Notes under the pieces: generated by a model
The model's input: only the letters and a program-made list of their open reading frames with translations
The model's database searches: none
Told to the model about the DNA's origin: nothing
Position numbers and translations under genes: made by a program
Origin: Nitrosococcus watsonii C-113
Lineage (GTDB): Bacteria > Pseudomonadota > Gammaproteobacteria > Nitrosococcales > Nitrosococcaceae
Length of the DNA: 64,000 bases
Direction: 5' to 3'
NCBI RefSeq assembly: GCF_000143085.1
Contig: NC_014315.1
Coordinates: 2,448,001 to 2,512,000 of the forward strand
Shown here: piece after piece, positions 42,560 through 50,448 of the stretch
Position numbering within the stretch: position 1 is the first letter of the stretch
How the letters are laid out: the number at the start of each line of letters is the position of its first letter

Positions 42560-43954
42560 TTACTTGCATCCTTTGCGAAAACGGACTAATCGCTTACGTT
42601 TTTGTTGCTGGCGTTGAGTTAAAATATTTGTTCGTCCCTCAAAAGGATTTTTTACCGTTCTAAATTCCAAGGCTATCGGCGTTCCCATCAACCCGAAAAC
42701 ACTACGAAAGTAATTAATTAGATAGCGCCGATAATTTGCTGACACTGCCTCTGCTTGATTGCCATGAATAATGATTTTAGGAGGATTCTGTCCTCCTTGA
42801 TGGGCATAGCGAAGCTTAATCCGTCGCCCTTTCACAATTGGCGGCGGATGCTTTTCAACAGCAGCCAGCAATGCTCGGTTAAGTTCACCTGTAGGAAGTT
42901 GTGAGTTAGCTGACTGATAGGCTTCATCAATGGAAGGGAAAAGATCTCCCACACCACTGCCATGAAGAGCAGAAATAAAGTGTATCCTAGCGAAAACAAG
43001 AAAGGGTAGACGTCTATCCAAATCTTTTTTTACTCTTTGACGCTGCTCCAAGGGTAAGCCATCCCATTTATTTACCGCGATGACTACGCCCTTCCCACTC
43101 TCCAATATCACACCCGCCAAATGTAAATCTTGCTCCACCACACTATCATGGGCATCAATCACTAGGATCACAACTTGGGCTATTGCTATTGATTGGAGAG
43201 ATTGAATAACACTGAATTTCTCTACCCTATCCAAGATCCTTGAGCGACGGCGTATTCCAGCCGTATCCACCAAGGTATAGTCTCTACCATGGTGACGAAA
43301 GGGGATGGAAATACTATCCCTTGTCGTCCCGGGGATTTCCGACGAGAGGACTCGCTCTTCTCCTAAGATACGATTGACGAGAGTAGATTTTCCTACATTA
43401 GGGCGACCAATAACAGCCAATTGAAGCCCCTTAGCTTGAATTTCAGATTCTTCCCTTCCCGCCACGGGTAAAAGAGTTAGCAACGCCTGCAGCAGTACTT
43501 CTACACCCTGCCCTTGCCGGGCCGAAATAATAGCCGGTTCTCCCAGCCCTAAGCAATAAAATTCAGAAGCAACCAGATCTTCGTCCCGCCCTTCCGCTTT
43601 ATTAATAACTAATTTGAGCGGTTTCTCAGTACAACGCAGCCATTCAGCAATTTCCTCATCCAAGCTAGATAACCCCTCCCGGGCATCAACGAGGAAAAAA
43701 ATAACATCTGCTTCTTCTATCGCAAGTTGCGCCTGCCCTCGCATGAGGCTTCCAATCTCAGACTCTTGCTCCATTATGCCGCCCGTATCAACGACAAAAA
43801 ACGATTGCTCGCCACAATAGGCAAGGCCATATTGCCGGTCACGGGTTACCCCCGGCTGATCAGCAACAAGGGCGTCGCGGCTCCGAGTAAGGCGATTAAA
43901 AAGCGTTGATTTACCAACGTTTGGACGTCCAACCAGGGCAACAAGAGCTTTCAT
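42560..43954 (-). CDS. der: Ribosome-associated GTPase Der (EngA)
   Basis: Der has two GTPase domains in tandem and helps 50S ribosome assembly. Two P-loops, GRPNVGKSTLFNRL (residue 8) and GRPNVGKSTLVNRIL (about 190), each have later DTGG or DTAG and NKAE or NKWD motifs. The C-terminal KH-like domain is present (NYFRSVFGLMGTPIALEFR). The 464-residue length is slightly shorter than in E. coli. A gap of about 180 bases separates it from bamB, the usual upstream partner. Confidence 0.97.
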   Translation of the reverse strand: MKALVALVGRPNVGKSTLFNRLTRSRDALVADQPGVTRDRQYGLAYCGEQSFFVVDTGGIMEQESEIGSLMRGQAQLAIEEADVIFFLVDAREGLSSLDEEIAEWLRCTEKPLKLVINKAEGRDEDLVASEFYCLGLGEPAIISARQGQGVEVLLQALLTLLPVAGREESEIQAKGLQLAVIGRPNVGKSTLVNRILGEERVLSSEIPGTTRDSISIPFRHHGRDYTLVDTAGIRRRSRILDRVEKFSVIQSLQSIAIAQVVILVIDAHDSVVEQDLHLAGVILESGKGVVIAVNKWDGLPLEQRQRVKKDLDRRLPFLVFARIHFISALHGSGVGDLFPSIDEAYQSANSQLPTGELNRALLAAVEKHPPPIVKGRRIKLRYAHQGGQNPPKIIIHGNQAEAVSANYRRYLINYFRSVFGLMGTPIALEFRTVKNPFEGRTNILTQRQQQKRKRLVRFRKGCK

Positions 43955-44132
43955 GCTGACGACTCAAAGGAAACGGGGGAAAGGGGTAAGTATATGCGCT
44001 AATACCACAAATATTGCAAAGGACTCAGAAATATCTAAAATACTTCCAAACTAGTTTGGGCAAAGTCAGAAAAAACTCAAATAAACAACACCATCAGGAG
44101 CAGAAAAAAGGAAAATCCTATTGTGACCTCCA

Positions 44133-45332
44133 TTAACCAGCGATCTTAATCGCTTTCAAAATTCCTCCCTGACTATTAACATACAAAATGTCATCCAGTA
44201 CCAAAGGAGCATTCACAATCCCTTTCTCATCTACTTCAATACGAGCAACAAAATGGCCGTCCTCTTTGGCCATCCAGTGGACATAACCCGCTGAATCGCC
44301 TACCACGACATAGTTTTGGTAGGGAGTTGGAGCTGTCGGTTGCCTCCTAAGCAATTTAGATTGACGCCAAAGAGAGGCACCAGTGCGGCTTTCTAACGCC
44401 CATATACTCCCTTCCATATCAGTAACATACAGGGATTTTCCATCCGTGCCGATACCTGCATAGGAGGACATCTCCCGGGTCCAGAGAATATCACCATCCG
44501 CCAACCACAGGGCGGCAATTCGGCCATTATAAGTGACTGTATAGATATATCCCCCATACACCACTGGCTTAGAATCGATATCCGCTAGCCGATCGAGTTC
44601 AGTGCGGCCCCGCGGGATAACAATAGCCCGCTCCCACAATAACTGACCATCTTCTAAGGTTAGCGCCACCAATTTACCACCTGCCAGCCCAATAATAGCT
44701 TTACGGTCAGCCACTACTGGAGCTGCGACTCCACGCAATGTTAAAATAGGAACATTATGCTGGTAGACCCATAAGCGGGAACCATCGTTTGCATCCAACC
44801 CATAAACCTGGTCATCTCCTGAACGGATTACCACGATACCGTCAGCCACACTAGGGGCTGATAGTATCTCGCTAGACACATTAGTTCGCCAAACCAGCGA
44901 GCCATTAGCAGCATCCAAGGCGATAACCTCCGCTTCCTCTGTTCCCAAGACTACGAGGTCATCGCTTCCACCTGGCCCACCGGTAATAGGTAAATCAAGC
45001 TTAATCTCCCAAATCTTCTCCCCAGTCAGGGCATCAAAGGCGCTAACCTGGCCTCCATAATCTGCGGCAACTACTTTATCACCAATAATGGAAAGAGGAA
45101 GCCGAAGATAATGATCTCTTGTTCCTTTCCCCACTTTGGCAGACCATAACACCTCAACTCCAACTTCAGGAGCAAACTCCACCAATGCCATCGGGGGTTC
45201 GCTAGTATCAGGTTCAGGAAGGTATTCCTGCAGAAGCTCGCATCCTGTCAATGAAAAAAACATAAGGTTAAAAAAAACCGCTCGATCCAAGCGGCGCTTT
45301 CCCAAAATTTTCCTCGAGCCAAACCTAAACAC
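44133..45332 (-). CDS. bamB: Outer membrane assembly lipoprotein BamB
   Basis: BamB is an eight-bladed beta-propeller that aids BamA. The lipobox is LTGC, about 30 residues after the start, and repeated blade motifs are seen, e.g. VSAFDALTGEKIWE, VIALDAANGSLVWR, VYGLDANDGSRLWV, IWALESRTGASLWR. I start at GTG 45332 (399 aa), with AGG eight bases upstream, which gives a basic N terminus and hydrophobic core; the longest frame begins at 45374 and would overlap yfgM. The start is not certain. bamA is 5 kb upstream in the same direction. Confidence 0.93.
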   Translation of the reverse strand: MFRFGSRKILGKRRLDRAVFFNLMFFSLTGCELLQEYLPEPDTSEPPMALVEFAPEVGVEVLWSAKVGKGTRDHYLRLPLSIIGDKVVAADYGGQVSAFDALTGEKIWEIKLDLPITGGPGGSDDLVVLGTEEAEVIALDAANGSLVWRTNVSSEILSAPSVADGIVVIRSGDDQVYGLDANDGSRLWVYQHNVPILTLRGVAAPVVADRKAIIGLAGGKLVALTLEDGQLLWERAIVIPRGRTELDRLADIDSKPVVYGGYIYTVTYNGRIAALWLADGDILWTREMSSYAGIGTDGKSLYVTDMEGSIWALESRTGASLWRQSKLLRRQPTAPTPYQNYVVVGDSAGYVHWMAKEDGHFVARIEVDEKGIVNAPLVLDDILYVNSQGGILKAIKIAG

Positions 45333-45351
45333 GGAACGAACCTGACCACCC

Positions 45352-45990
45352 TCAAGGTTGAGCGAGATCGTCAAGTTTCATTTGTAGTATCTGCTGATAC
45401 TGCTCGCTTGGCCCCAAACCCAATAACGCCTCCTGATAGGCCAGTTGTGCCTCTGATGGTTGGCCCAGTGCTACATAAGCATCGCCGCGCATTTCAGCAT
45501 ACGCAGAGGAGAAACTGCCTGGCTTAACTTCGGCTAACGTCGTTAGCACTTCTTGAGGATTGCCCGCTGCTAGCAACAAACGCGCAAGACGCAAATATAT
45601 TACTTTTTGAAGACTAGAATGCCGAGCATGCTCTAGTGCCCCCTTAAGGCGTTCGGTGGCAGTCTCGAGATCGCCACGGACTTGATCTTCCTTAGCCAGT
45701 ATCAATACACTAAACAACCCATAGGAAGTATCGCTGTACTCTTGAAGAAGATACTCCGCGCTATTGTAAATTTCGGCATTAGCGTCCTGATCCGTGGCCA
45801 CTAATATCTGCTGATAGAGTGACGATGCTTCGCTGGTACGGCTTTGCTCATATTTTGTCCAACTCCGTAGACCTAAGAGAGCTAGAAGCCCGATAATGAG
45901 TCCTACTAGGACAGCACGGCCATTTTCCCGCCACCATTGTCTGATAGCTTCACTTTTTTCCTGATCTGATGCGTAAATATCTAATGCCAT
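45352..45990 (-). CDS. yfgM: YfgM-like membrane-anchored TPR protein
   Basis: YfgM is an inner-membrane protein linked to the SecYEG translocon and periplasmic chaperones. The N terminus MALDIYASDQEKSEAIRQWW and the helix at about 26-45 are typical; the remainder (60-212) looks like TPR helices. I start at ATG 45990 (212 aa), which fits the family; an in-frame start at 46002 adds four residues. In E. coli the order is hisS-yfgM-bamB-der; here lpxA takes the hisS place. Confidence 0.93.
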   Translation of the reverse strand: MALDIYASDQEKSEAIRQWWRENGRAVLVGLIIGLLALLGLRSWTKYEQSRTSEASSLYQQILVATDQDANAEIYNSAEYLLQEYSDTSYGLFSVLILAKEDQVRGDLETATERLKGALEHARHSSLQKVIYLRLARLLLAAGNPQEVLTTLAEVKPGSFSSAYAEMRGDAYVALGQPSEAQLAYQEALLGLGPSEQYQQILQMKLDDLAQP

Positions 45991-46019
45991 TTTAAAACCC
46001 AAAGTGTTTAGACACTTGA

Positions 46020-46790
46020 CTACCGAATGATGCCGCGGCTGGAATTCTCAAGGAAATCCAAAAAAATTTGGACTTCAGAACTTTTCTCCGCTAGCCGTTT
46101 CAGCTCCTTGACAGAATCTTCAAAACGCAAACCTTGGCGGTAAAGTAACTTATAAGCGTTACGCAATTTACGTATGACTTCTTCACTAAAATTAGCGCGC
46201 CTTAGACCTATATGGTTAATCCCCACCGGCTTTGCCATATGTCCCGCTACTAACACGTAGGGAGGAACATCTTTATGAATAACACTGGCGACGGAACAGA
46301 AACCATAGGTACCTACACTGCAGAACTGAGCAACCAAGGCATATCCCCCAAGCGTCGCATAATCGCCAATAACCGCATGTCCCGCCAAAGATGCATTGTT
46401 AGCAAAAGTTGTATGGTGACCTACGATACAATCATGGGCAATATGGACATAAGCCATTATCCAATTGTGATGGCCCATCCGGGTAACACCCCCTCCCTGA
46501 ACGGTGCCTCGGTTAATTGTAGTATACTCCCTTATGACATTTTCATTCCCGATTTCAAGAAGGGTGTCTTCCCCACCATATTTTTTATCCTGAGGAATAT
46601 CTCCGATGGAAGCAAACTGGAATATCTTATTTTTTTTTCCGATACGGGTGGGTCCTCGAACAACGACATGCGGGCCAATCCAAGTTTCCGCTTCAATCTG
46701 CACATTTGCTCCAATAATTGAATAAGGCCCTACAGTAACAGTTTCGTCAATCTCAGCGCTGGAATCAATAACCGCCCTACGATCAATCAC
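46020..46790 (-). CDS. lpxA: Acyl-[ACP]--UDP-N-acetylglucosamine O-acyltransferase
   Basis: LpxA starts lipid A synthesis. The 256-residue left-handed beta-helix has hexapeptide repeats through residue 180, the [11 protein letters not shown] loop, catalytic His in [13 protein letters not shown] and [15 protein letters not shown], then a helical tail. The start is GTG and overlaps the fabZ stop (GTGA). lpxB, which normally follows, is missing; yfgM comes next. Confidence 0.97.
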
Positions 46791-47236
46791 TTATAAGTTT
46801 CCTGGTAGGAACACATCACTTCGGCCGAAGCAACGAGACTTCCATCCACCGTTACTGTTCCAGTAAATTTCCACAAGCGACGCAAGCTACGTACAAGCTC
46901 AACCTCTAGACGCATTTGATCGCCTGGTCCAACGGGACGCTTGAACCGTGCCCGATCAATGCCCGCAAAATAATAAATTGCCTCTTCCGAGGGCATAGTT
47001 TCCGTTGTTTTAAAAGCTAATATTCCAGTAGCCTGGGCCAAGGATTCAAGAATCAGCACCCCTGGCATGATAGGTAGCCCTGGGAAATGGCCCTGAAAGT
47101 AAGGTTCGTTGTAGCTTACGTTCTTGACGGCCACGAGCGACTTCCCTGGTATACATTCTATGACTCTGTCAATCAGGAGAAAGGGGTAACGGTGAGGAAG
47201 ATGCTTAAGTATCTCGTGTATATCCAGTGTATCCAA
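46787..47236 (-). CDS. fabZ: 3-hydroxyacyl-[ACP] dehydratase FabZ
   Basis: FabZ dehydrates 3-hydroxyacyl-ACP in fatty-acid synthesis and competes with LpxA for 3-hydroxyacyl-ACP. The [13 protein letters not shown] start, the catalytic [20 protein letters not shown] (His and Glu) and [17 protein letters not shown] are present; the 149 residues are normal. The only start that keeps the family N terminus is TTG at 47236, with AAGG eight bases upstream. It is preceded by about 250 bases without a gene where lpxD usually lies. Confidence 0.95.
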
Positions 47237-47487
47237 TGAAAAAACCTTGATTTTAAGAAAAAGATCTTAGACATACTTATAATTTGTTTTGGTAAGATAA
47301 ATATCCCACCAACTTACTTAATTATTAGAATGCAAAAAAATTCTGGCTTATATTTCCTAACTTTTAACAACATTTTTTACTGTTTAGTACTATACTAAAT
47401 TACTTGCTTCCAACATAACATCTTCCTTTACAGGAATATATAACGCTCACGGGCTCTAGCCTCAGTGCAAAATAGCCATACAGCCAA
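47237..47487. other. A+T-rich gap between skp and fabZ where lpxD is usually found
   Basis: About 250 bases, strongly A+T rich, without a reading frame on either strand that looks coding and without visible LpxD motifs. It should contain the skp 3' end and a promoter for fabZ-lpxA. Confidence 0.6.
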
Positions 47488-48024
47488 TTAAGGTCTATAC
47501 TGAGACTTCAACAGCTTAAGCACATCGGCCGTAATATCAACTTTATCGCTAGCGTAAATAACCCCCTCGTAGACAACAAGATCGTATTTTTTTTTCTCAG
47601 CTAAGTCCACAATTGCCTTAGCAATTTCTTCCTGCAATTTCCGGAACTCTTCATTACGCCGAATGTTATAGTCTTCTCGAAATACCTCTTGATCACGCTT
47701 GAGGTCGCGGTTTTGATTTAAGATATCCCGTTCTAGGGCTTTACGATCGGCTTCGCTCATAATGGCCGCATCACGATTAAACCTATCCTCTAAGCCGCGC
47801 AGCTTTTTTTGCTTTGACACTAATTCCCTGTTGCGTATTTCAAACTCTTTTTTCAATATCTCTAACGCCGCTTCTTTTTGCGGCGCTTCATCCAGCAACT
47901 TGACTGCATTTACCGCACCGATCTTTAAGTCAACAGCTCCTGCCGGGACACTAGCTATCATAGAGCCTGGCAGTAAAAAAGCCACGAGCACGATCAATTT
48001 AAACGATTTATCCATTCTTACCAT
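47488..48024 (-). CDS. skp: Periplasmic chaperone Skp/OmpH
   Basis: Skp holds unfolded outer-membrane proteins in the periplasm on their way to BamA. The 178-residue protein has a signal peptide (cleavage likely after AGA, near VDLKIGAVNAVKLL), then a long charged coiled-coil part (50-130, many K, E, R, Q) and a C-terminal strand. I start at ATG 48024, with GAGAGG seven bases upstream; an ATG at 48042 is in frame. It follows bamA on the same strand, its standard place. Confidence 0.93.
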   Translation of the reverse strand: MVRMDKSFKLIVLVAFLLPGSMIASVPAGAVDLKIGAVNAVKLLDEAPQKEAALEILKKEFEIRNRELVSKQKKLRGLEDRFNRDAAIMSEADRKALERDILNQNRDLKRDQEVFREDYNIRRNEEFRKLQEEIAKAIVDLAEKKKYDLVVYEGVIYASDKVDITADVLKLLKSQYRP

Positions 48025-48147
48025 AAGACTACCTCTCAACATTCAATATGACTGTCTACGCCAGAAAAATATTGGCTTACCGAATGGCTCTAAAATAAAT
48101 ATCAAATATTAATACGCACCAAAGGATCTCTTTTACGAGAGAGCACG

Positions 48148-50448
48148 TTAAAATGAAGTTCCCAAGGAGAACTGGAATACTTCAGGCCGATCATTTGGCT
48201 GAACATTGAAGGCTTTTGCAAAACTAAATTGCAGGCTACCAAACGGCGATAGCCAATTGGCTGAAATGCCAGCTGAATACCGGAGTCCTTCCAGACTGAT
48301 ATCTTCATCTATACCGTAGACATTACCTGCATCAATAAAAGTACCTAAGCGCACAGATTTTAATTCTTCTGCAAAAGGAACAGGAAAAAATACCTCGATA
48401 GTCCCTGTCATTTTAAAATTACCGCCAAGCGTAGTACCATCCGAGGCCTTTGGACCAAGCGTATTAGCCTTGAAACCACGCACACTATGTATACCACCGG
48501 CAAAGAAATTTTCAAAGAAGGGAAACTCTTCGGTACGTCCATAAGCATTTCCGTAAGCCACATCGCCATTTAGCATCAAAGTAAGAGATTTAGACAGGGG
48601 ATGAAACCAACGGTGCCGATAACCAAACTTAAAAAACTGCAGGCTACCTAGCGGCAAAGTAATCTCACCGAAAAGGCTTTGAATACTGCCATCAGTCGTT
48701 AAAAGAGCATTATCCCGGCTATCACGAGACCAACCTAAATTCGTATTAAAAGTGTCAAACTTACTGCCTTCACTATCTACAAAATTATGGTACTCCTGGG
48801 GAGAATTTTCAGTTAAATTAACCTTCGTATGCTGATACCCAAAACCAAGACGTACTCTATCAGTTTCAGTGACCGGTATACCGAAATGCATATCACCGCC
48901 ATATGCATCAGTGCTAAAACGGGCAATATTAGCTCTAAATGGACTTGTTTCACGATAAAAAACGTTAAATCCACGACTAATACCATCAATAGTATAATAT
49001 GGATTAGTATATCCAAAACTATAGATAGTATTCACCTGACTATTATTAAAGCTAAAGCTTACATGCTTACCACTTCCCAGAAAGTTTTGCTGGGTAATAC
49101 TAGCATTAAAAATAAAACCCTGGGATTGAGAAAAACCTAAACCTGCCGACAGAGATCCTGAAGGACGCTCTACTACGCTAAAATTCACATCAACTTGATC
49201 CGTGGTTCCCGGAACCGGTACCGTCTCCACATTAACATCTTCAAAATAGCCTAAGCGCTGGATCCGCAGCCGGGAACGATCGATCAACTCGGTGGCTACC
49301 CATCCTCCCTCCTGTTGGCGTATCTCCCGGCGAAGCACCTCATCCCGGGTTTTAGTATTCCCTGAAATATTAATTCGCCGAACATACGCACGCTTACCGG
49401 GATCAACAAAAAAGGTTAGGTTTACCTTCTTCTCTTCTTCATTTATTTCTGGCACAGCATTTACATTAGCAAACGCATACCCTTTATTTCCTAACAGATC
49501 GGTAATATGAGTCGTACTCTCCGCTATGGCCTTGCGTGAAAAAACTTTTCCAGAAGCTACCGTTAAAGCATCAAATAGTTTCTCGTGGGGCAGAACTAAA
49601 TCTCCGGCCAACTTAACCTCACCAATTTGGTAGCGATCACCTTCAGTGATATTAACGGTAATAAACACTCGCCTTTTATCAGGTGTTATTGAAACTTGAG
49701 TAGAATCAATATTAAAGTTGATATAGCCACGATCTAAATAATAAGAGCGTAATGCTTCAAGATCCGCCGCCAGTTTCTGCCGGGAATACTGATCATCATG
49801 AGTAAAAAATGATAGCCAGTTCGAAGTGTGTAGCTGAAATGCACCCAAAAGCTCATCTTCACTAAAAGCATGATTTCCTATGATATTGATACCGCCAATC
49901 TTAGCAATAGCACCCTCTTTAATATTTACGGTAATACCTACCTGATTACGGGCCAAGGGAGTCACCGTCGTATCAATTTTAACCCCATATTTACCACGAC
50001 TAAAATATTGGCGTTGCAGCTCCAATTCTACCTTCTCCAGCAGCGCTCGATCAAAAACACGCCCCTCTGCAAATCCTACTTGTTTAAGAGCCTGCGCAAG
50101 CTGATCGCCTTTAAGTTCTTTATTACCGACAAATTGGATGCTAGTAATTGTAGGCCTTTCCTCTACCACCACAACTAGAACATTGCCCTCGCGCTCTACC
50201 CGCACATCCTTAAAAAACCGTGTCTTGAATAATCCACGAATAATCTCCTTAACCCGCTGGCTATCAATCGTATCACCAACTTTTATCGGAAGATAATTAA
50301 ACACCGTACCTGCGGAAATACGTTGCAATCCCTCAACCCGTATATCCTTAACTATAAATTCTTGAAATTCTGCCGCCAGCACCTGGCCTATAAAAATCAG
50401 CGCCACAATAGCAACTGCTATTGGCTTTTTTACAAACTTCAAAGACAT
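48148..50448 (-). CDS. bamA: Outer membrane protein assembly factor BamA
   Basis: BamA inserts beta-barrel proteins in the outer membrane. The 766-residue protein has a signal peptide (1-25), five POTRA repeats (about 28-425, starting [14 protein letters not shown]) and a C-terminal 16-strand barrel. The VRGF motif of loop 6 is present ([13 protein letters not shown]) and the last residue is Phe (FSLGTSF), the usual barrel signal. Skp follows and rseP precedes it, as in other gammaproteobacteria. Confidence 0.97.

Follow-up and report, generated by a model that had tools for sequence, protein, structure and literature searches.

Most well-studied Gram-negative bacteria cannot live without lpxD, whose usual place is an operon that reads bamA-skp-lpxD-fabZ-lpxA-lpxB-rnhB in our Escherichia coli K-12 control. 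A GnnA/GnnB/LpxA route to lipid A containing 2,3-diamino-2,3-dideoxyglucose (GlcN3N) was reportedly described for Acidithiobacillus ferrooxidans by Sweet et al. in 2004, and the LpxA of Leptospira is said to prefer UDP-GlcNAc3N, the 3-amino form of UDP-N-acetylglucosamine (UDP-GlcNAc). Published reports state that A. ferrooxidans GnnA and GnnB make GlcN3N from UDP-GlcNAc (PMC5644692, PMC8036547, PMC3342949), that in Capnocytophaga canimorsus, which carries two lpxA genes, gnnA, and gnnB, a hybrid GlcN3N'-GlcN lipid A was measured (PMC3342949), and that lpxD1 and lpxD2 of Leptospira belong to one pathway, one of them being missing in some species (PMC4758666). Here we compare with these systems a 64,000-nucleotide window of Nitrosococcus watsonii C-113, probably an ammonia-oxidizing bacterium, in which a 251-bp gap (47237..47487) separates skp from fabZ at the place of lpxD. 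The window corresponds to C1:2448001-2512000 of the source genome (G000; 3.37 Mb, 3 contigs, 100% complete).

The minus-strand order is rseP, bamA, skp, the 251-bp gap, fabZ, and lpxA, followed by three genes that we take to be yfgM-, bamB-, and der-like. The genes bamA, skp, fabZ, and lpxA stand in the same order as in E. coli K-12, whereas lpxD and lpxB are absent from their E. coli places and the yfgM-, bamB-, and der-like genes come after lpxA. The initial annotation of this DNA had taken bamA-skp-lpxD-fabZ-lpxA-lpxB as the usual order, which the control displays, and had reported about 250 A+T-rich bases in place of lpxD and the lack of lpxB after lpxA. Both observations stand: the gap has a G+C content of 29.9%, and the yfgM-like gene follows lpxA, the one lpxB lying elsewhere in the genome.

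We consider it probable that the gap was left by an old replacement of lpxD by a gene of a second LpxD lineage, labeled LpxD2 here, and that gnnA- and gnnB-like genes together with a second LpxA (LpxA2) provide a route to GlcN3N-containing lipid A. What is new is the lpxD replacement, together with the gnnAB genes and the second LpxA that accompany it; a pathway of this kind is already known. The gene was apparently replaced outright, with living genomes still holding both copies and with one independent repeat.

An old gap in place of lpxD

The gap is present in all six members of the host's family, with a length of 127 to 429 bp. Compared to 49.4% G+C window-wide, its composition is uncommon, since 0.4% of 2550 sampled 251-bp stretches were equally A+T-rich. 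The initial annotation had regarded lpxD fragments in the gap as a sign of recent loss. A tblastn search with 12 LpxDs on the six family gaps gave best scores of 16.2 to 20.4 bits, no better than those of 20 letter-shuffles per gap (means of 15.7 to 18.8 bits, maxima of 20.4 to 22.3 bits), and no lpxD remnant was found on this basis. Since the six family members all carry the gap without an lpxD remnant, the gap is old.

In the sister family, lpxD and an LpxA-type match are no more than about 2 kb apart in all 33 genomes listed (lpxD is in two pieces in G038; 24 of these LpxAs are rows in the LpxA tree), versus none of the six genomes of the host's family. The initial annotation had allowed for a gap shared by all relatives, with an lpxD simply relocated long ago. 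The shared gap is borne out within the family; simple relocation is not, given the position of lpxD in the sister family and the lineage of the host's own LpxD.

The only LpxD of the genome belongs to a second lineage

A single lpxD above the family cutoff was detected in the genome, intact, at C1:3072872-3073843, within G000:C1:3072821-3073861, and its product scored 358.6 bits against TIGR01853 (cutoff, 242.5 bits) over positions 1 to 324 of 325. This isolated gene adjoins a presumably hemJ-like gene in 6/6 family members. The protein shares 34% identity with E. coli LpxD and, among the best 45 matches listed, 35 to 39% with LpxDs of the sister family and at most 46% with deltaproteobacterial ones.

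Class-wide LpxD sequences were collected at an E value of 1e-60 on 295 genomes (at 1e-95, the host genome alone was retrieved among 370). Trees were built from 67 rows, from a 59-row set lacking eight long or duplicate rows, and from 73 rows, the last obtained from 101 by dropping ten long or duplicate rows and thinning the sister family from 26 to 8. In the 73-row tree, a branch with 100/99 support separates six family LpxDs, seven deltaproteobacterial LpxDs, and seven further gammaproteobacterial LpxDs from 53 gammaproteobacterial rows that include E. coli and the eight sister-family rows kept. Grouping of the host's and sister-family LpxDs in one clade was rejected by the approximately unbiased (AU) test (P = 0.0038, 59-row set). 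Because of this separation and of the rejection of the joint clade, the only LpxD of the genome appears to be of another lineage rather than the operon gene moved away.

By eye, open reading frames (ORFs) resembling cas1 and other CRISPR-associated genes adjoin the isolated lpxD (L038:1011-5562), and transposase-like ORFs lie near it (L001:2596-2991 and L038:10355-11035); no family search was made for either group.

Genomes with both LpxD lineages and other empty junctions

Five genomes (G105, G170, G270, G281, and G308) carry both LpxD lineages, one copy in a bamA-skp-lpxD-fabZ-lpxA row and the second-lineage copy apart; in G270, the two genes share one contig. Three LpxDs were found in G259, the second-lineage row being a long branch. 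Genome G152 (99% complete), which belongs to the family of G270, encodes a single LpxD, a second-lineage one; on its contig, bamA, skp, fabZ, and lpxA follow one another, skp and fabZ being 92 bp apart. Since G152 combines a sole second-lineage LpxD with the same gap, a minimum of two independent origins is implied for the lpxD-less operon of the window, provided that the gene was lost separately in the two families. Outside the host's family, the seven genomes with a second-lineage LpxD, which were drawn from loci placed in the tree and include some close kin, all encode GnnA, and six of them have two LpxA matches. The pattern resembles that reported for lpxD1 and lpxD2 of Leptospira, where there are two LpxD genes, one of which is absent in some species.

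Gene order around gnnA was scanned in the best 80 of 575 loci, 35 of which entered the LpxA count. Locus labels are best BLAST labels of nonoverlapping ORFs, so that a missing label does not mean absence, and the skp-lpxD-fabZ part was redone on all ORFs. Beyond the host's family, 25 of 35 gnnA genomes show the skp-fabZ junction, and nine of these have no lpxD in it: six Methylococcaceae-type genomes (G043, G045, G046, G049, G051, and G065), an Ectothiorhodospiraceae metagenome-assembled genome (MAG) (G052), Legionella yabuuchiae (G053), and a gammaproteobacterial MAG (G064). In these nine genomes, skp and fabZ are 29 to 191 bp apart; lpxD was not searched for elsewhere in them. In the LpxA2 core clade, 12 of the 13 visible junctions are without lpxD (six from the host's family, five from Methylococcaceae, and G064), which represents three lineages, not 12 events.

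lpxB in a gnnA-gnnB-like cluster facing a second lpxA

The initial annotation had proposed that lpxD and lpxB lie elsewhere in the genome or that lipid A is altered. Both genes are indeed present, one copy of each, intact and above the family cutoffs, lpxB being located at C1:1488246-1489337 (TIGR00215, 334.4 bits; cutoff, 190.25). The second half of the proposal is also probably right, since lpxB is clustered with gnnA- and gnnB-like genes and a second lpxA; the two halves seem to be true together rather than alternatives. In this cluster (C1:about 1486070-1489395), lpxB directly follows genes for an oxidoreductase (gnnA-like) and a DegT/DnrJ-type aminotransferase (gnnB-like) and is convergent with lpxA2. 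The arrangement of gnnA-gnnB-lpxB facing lpxA2, and with it the linkage to lipid A genes, is found in 6/6 family members, whose four proteins are 58 to 96% identical to those of the host. Within the order, GnnA is present in 6/6 genomes of the host's family and 1/57 of the sister family. A single lpxC is located at C1:242747-243631.

lpxB does not follow lpxA in any of the 18 genomes of the order that were checked. In the sister family (12/12 genomes checked), it lies on a different contig from lpxA in eight genomes, all drafts, and at a distance of more than 100 kb in four, and in the host's family it is far from lpxA in 6/6. Because all 18 genomes share this separation, the departure of lpxB from the operon is probably older than the loss of lpxD.

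The LpxA2 protein comprises 256 residues, scores 269 bits against TIGR01852 (cutoff, 231), and has His at E. coli positions 122, 125, 144, and 160. In the LpxA tree, for which family LpxA2 sequences came from five of the six genomes (G003 left out), LpxA2 and the LpxA encoded in the window (LpxA1) fall on opposite sides (100/94), with a 16-row LpxA2 core at 100/100; the long-branched LpxA of Leptospira falls on the side of LpxA2. A joint clade of LpxA1 and LpxA2 of the family was rejected (P = 1.3e-6), which also ruled out a recent lpxA duplication within the family. LpxA2 is an ancient second LpxA. Residues at three E. coli positions set the 20 LpxA2-side rows apart from the 79 others: position G105 is a gap in 20/20 rows, Leptospira included (Gly in 65/79 others); the Ser67 position is Val in 19/20, Leptospira included (Ser in 70/79 others); and position 76 is mostly Gly, Ser, or Thr (Lys in 62/79 ordinary rows). 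His122, His125, and Gln161 are retained in the rows compared.

Among 370 genomes of the class, GnnA was detected in 119 (E value, 1e-90) and LpxA2-type LpxA in 22 belonging to 14 families, all 22 with GnnA; the LpxA2 line was drawn at 249 bits on the ranked list. Two LpxA matches were found in 48 genomes, 46 of which have GnnA (G199 and G457 do not). At most seven LpxA candidates were scored per genome, and the counts are uncorrected for relatedness. The LpxA2 type may offer a sequence marker for GlcN3N lipid A across the class.

Other arrangements were seen around these genes. A recurring gammaproteobacterial layout has bamA-skp-lpxD-fabZ-lpxA facing lpxB-gnnB-gnnA, then rnhB (L069 and L253); L061, L076, L087, and L106 show it with some labels missing, L106 without lpxD. 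This layout is perhaps the ancestral form of the split seen in the window. In Simiduia aestuariiviva (L061:16279-17830), two ordinary-type lpxA genes stand in tandem after fabZ, facing gnnA-gnnB-lpxB. Legionella bononiensis (G063, L171:4010-5892) has a divergent second lpxA directly before lpxD, both being long branches in the trees. Two Desulfuromonadales/Geobacter-type genomes (L172 and L173) carry a second LpxA, which falls in yet another clade; one report mentions an lpxA duplication in Geobacter sulfurreducens (PMC3087551).

Predicted pathway and alternatives

In the proposed replacement, LpxD2 would have come to perform the N-acylation step, and the lpxD native to the operon would have been lost in the ancestor of the family. 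GnnA and GnnB would convert UDP-GlcNAc to UDP-GlcNAc3N, LpxA2 would acylate the 3-amino group of the latter, LpxC and then LpxD2 would act next, and LpxB would join the units into GlcN3N lipid A. A hybrid or mixed backbone of glucosamine (GlcN) and GlcN3N, as in Capnocytophaga, would be expected since LpxA1 is still present, and LpxD2 would then serve the products of both LpxAs. We infer these substrates, the product, and the order of gain and loss from the observed gene positions, families, lineages, and co-occurrence.

The resemblance to the A. ferrooxidans route lies in the adjacent genes for a Gfo/Idh oxidoreductase and a DegT/DnrJ aminotransferase, linked to lipid A genes, and in an LpxA on the Leptospira side of the tree. 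Unlike that system, Nitrosococcus has two LpxA genes, lpxB within the gnn cluster, and a replaced operonic lpxD, and its product is predicted. With C. canimorsus, Nitrosococcus shares two lpxA genes plus gnnA and gnnB; its genes are scattered, however, and its backbone is a prediction. Since C. canimorsus, with the same gene set, has GlcN3N lipid A, the lipid A of the host's family should by analogy contain GlcN3N. No paper on Nitrosococcus lipid A was found by title or abstract start in open-license PubMed Central (with lipid A or lpxA), and the occurrence of GlcN3N lipid A in Nitrosococcus-like ammonia oxidizers is a testable prediction.

Several points weigh against the replacement and the pathway. 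Two operonic gammaproteobacterial LpxDs (L064 and L069) were placed, with weak support, on the side of LpxD2 in the first, 67-row tree (52/92), the bootstrap of the 73-row tree is not fully settled, and its deltaproteobacterial rows were sampled through GnnA; LpxD2 may have originated either by transfer or by old paralogy. G199 and G263, two of the eight genomes with two LpxDs, are without GnnA, their LpxD copies being outside the tree. Two LpxAs occur in 7/9 gnnA genomes with an empty junction versus 7/16 of those keeping lpxD (Fisher P = 0.21), so that among gnnA genomes a second LpxA is not a clear correlate of operonic lpxD loss, and G055 has LpxA2 yet keeps its operonic lpxD. The best NCBIfam model for the GnnA-like protein is an archaeal UDP-GlcNAc 3-dehydrogenase, at 206 bits versus a cutoff of 450, with no curated cutoff passed; the GnnB-like protein fits several DegT/DnrJ sugar aminotransferases, with no NCBIfam model listed above its cutoff. 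LpxA2 selectivity for UDP-GlcNAc3N is a prediction from the clade and the shared residues, and the presence of GlcN3N in the family's lipid A is likewise predicted from sequence. Finally, 18 of 35 gnnA genomes have a single, ordinary-type LpxA, and G047 has a single LpxA of the LpxA2 type. Because of those 18 genomes, LpxA2 is not needed wherever gnnA is.

The 18 genomes also lend themselves to the idea that LpxA2 is a chain-length variant or a relic that uses UDP-GlcNAc, GlcN3N, if made at all, being acylated by LpxA1. The E. coli G173 position, which has a role in chain length, is Val in LpxA1 and Gly in LpxA2, as a variant might show. We regard this explanation, which overlaps with the proposed pathway, as unlikely, since LpxA2-type sequences were never found without GnnA (22/22) and lie on the Leptospira side of the LpxA tree.

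Pairs of Gfo/Idh and DegT proteins also make other 3-amino sugars (WbpB/WbpE), and the GnnB-like protein matches WbpE chains with up to 319 bits. The GnnA/GnnB-like proteins and LpxA2 could accordingly serve a 3-amino sugar destined for O-antigen or some other glycan, lpxB being a neighbor by chance. Three observations make this quite improbable: gnnA, gnnB, and lpxB stand in a row, by BLAST label, in 18 of the best 80 loci; LpxA2 is above the LpxA cutoff and keeps His125; and among solved chains, 7bvj, which we take to be A. ferrooxidans GnnA, is far closer to the GnnA-like protein (1.5e-73, 250 bits) than any other (next chain, 75 bits). Plain relocation, in which a rearrangement carried lpxD and lpxB out of the operon and the two genes diverged afterwards, with an ordinary lipid A, would suit the intact single copies and the long stem of the family LpxDs (1.15 and 0.95 in two trees; long branches can be misplaced), but it is highly doubtful in view of the AU rejection, the 100/99 separation from 53 gammaproteobacterial LpxDs, and the five genomes carrying both lineages together, and it leaves gnnA, gnnB, and lpxA2 unexplained.

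Extending the proposed replacement beyond the host's family is more speculative. LpxA2 and LpxD2 might be partner acyltransferases suited to amide-linked (GlcN3N) lipid A. Having spread among gammaproteobacteria next to gnnAB, they would provide another version of the first stage of the Raetz pathway, and the operonic lpxD would become dispensable and be lost where this is the main route, as in the family of the window and in G152; we advance this tentatively, as a possibility. If so, the empty place in Methylococcales, in a Legionella, and in two other lineages would provide further cases, provided that their lpxD is of the second lineage.

The operon fragment and other features of the window

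All genes of the fragment are on the minus strand. The fragment is headed by bamA (48148..50448, a 766-residue ORF), in the same place as in E. coli. skp (47488..48042) was assigned by NCBIfam PRK10780 (1.7e-25; 89.9 bits, under the family cutoff of 237) and also by position; its in-frame ATG at 48024 agrees with the end of the region given in the initial annotation. fabZ (46787..47236; TIGR01750, 190 bits, above the cutoff) has a TTG start, ahead of which AAGG (47245..47248) is a likely ribosome-binding site. The AAGG motif occurs in 6/6 family gaps and the exact string AAGGTTTTTTCA (47234-47248) in 4/6.

The gap contains a palindrome-like element, TTTAGTACTATACTAAA (47383..47399), noticed by eye in the sequence and the gap alignment. 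A similar string is present in the gaps of four same-genus genomes, and the element is a possible candidate control site. A sigma-70 scan of positions 46700 to 48200 gave two sites, both on the other strand, versus 3.2 expected by chance, and a promoter and terminator scan of the gap revealed no signal beyond chance. An own promoter of fabZ in the gap, which the initial annotation had deemed probable, is possible.

The lpxA1 gene (46020..46790; TIGR01852, 317 bits, above the cutoff) is of the ordinary gammaproteobacterial type according to the tree. It is followed by the yfgM-like gene (45352..46002, 216 residues), which occupies the E. coli lpxB place, the bamB-like gene (44133..45374, 413 residues), and the der-like GTPase gene (42560..43954, 464 residues). 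Since these three come after lpxA, bamA and bamB are found in one gene row (42560-47236). In three sister-family loci (L055 to L057), a convergent 394-residue gene of unknown kind lies between lpxA and yfgM. In LpxA1 itself, Ala takes the place of His160 of E. coli LpxA, a residue said to matter for activity; the position is Ser in 25/79 ordinary-type rows, including three from the sister family.
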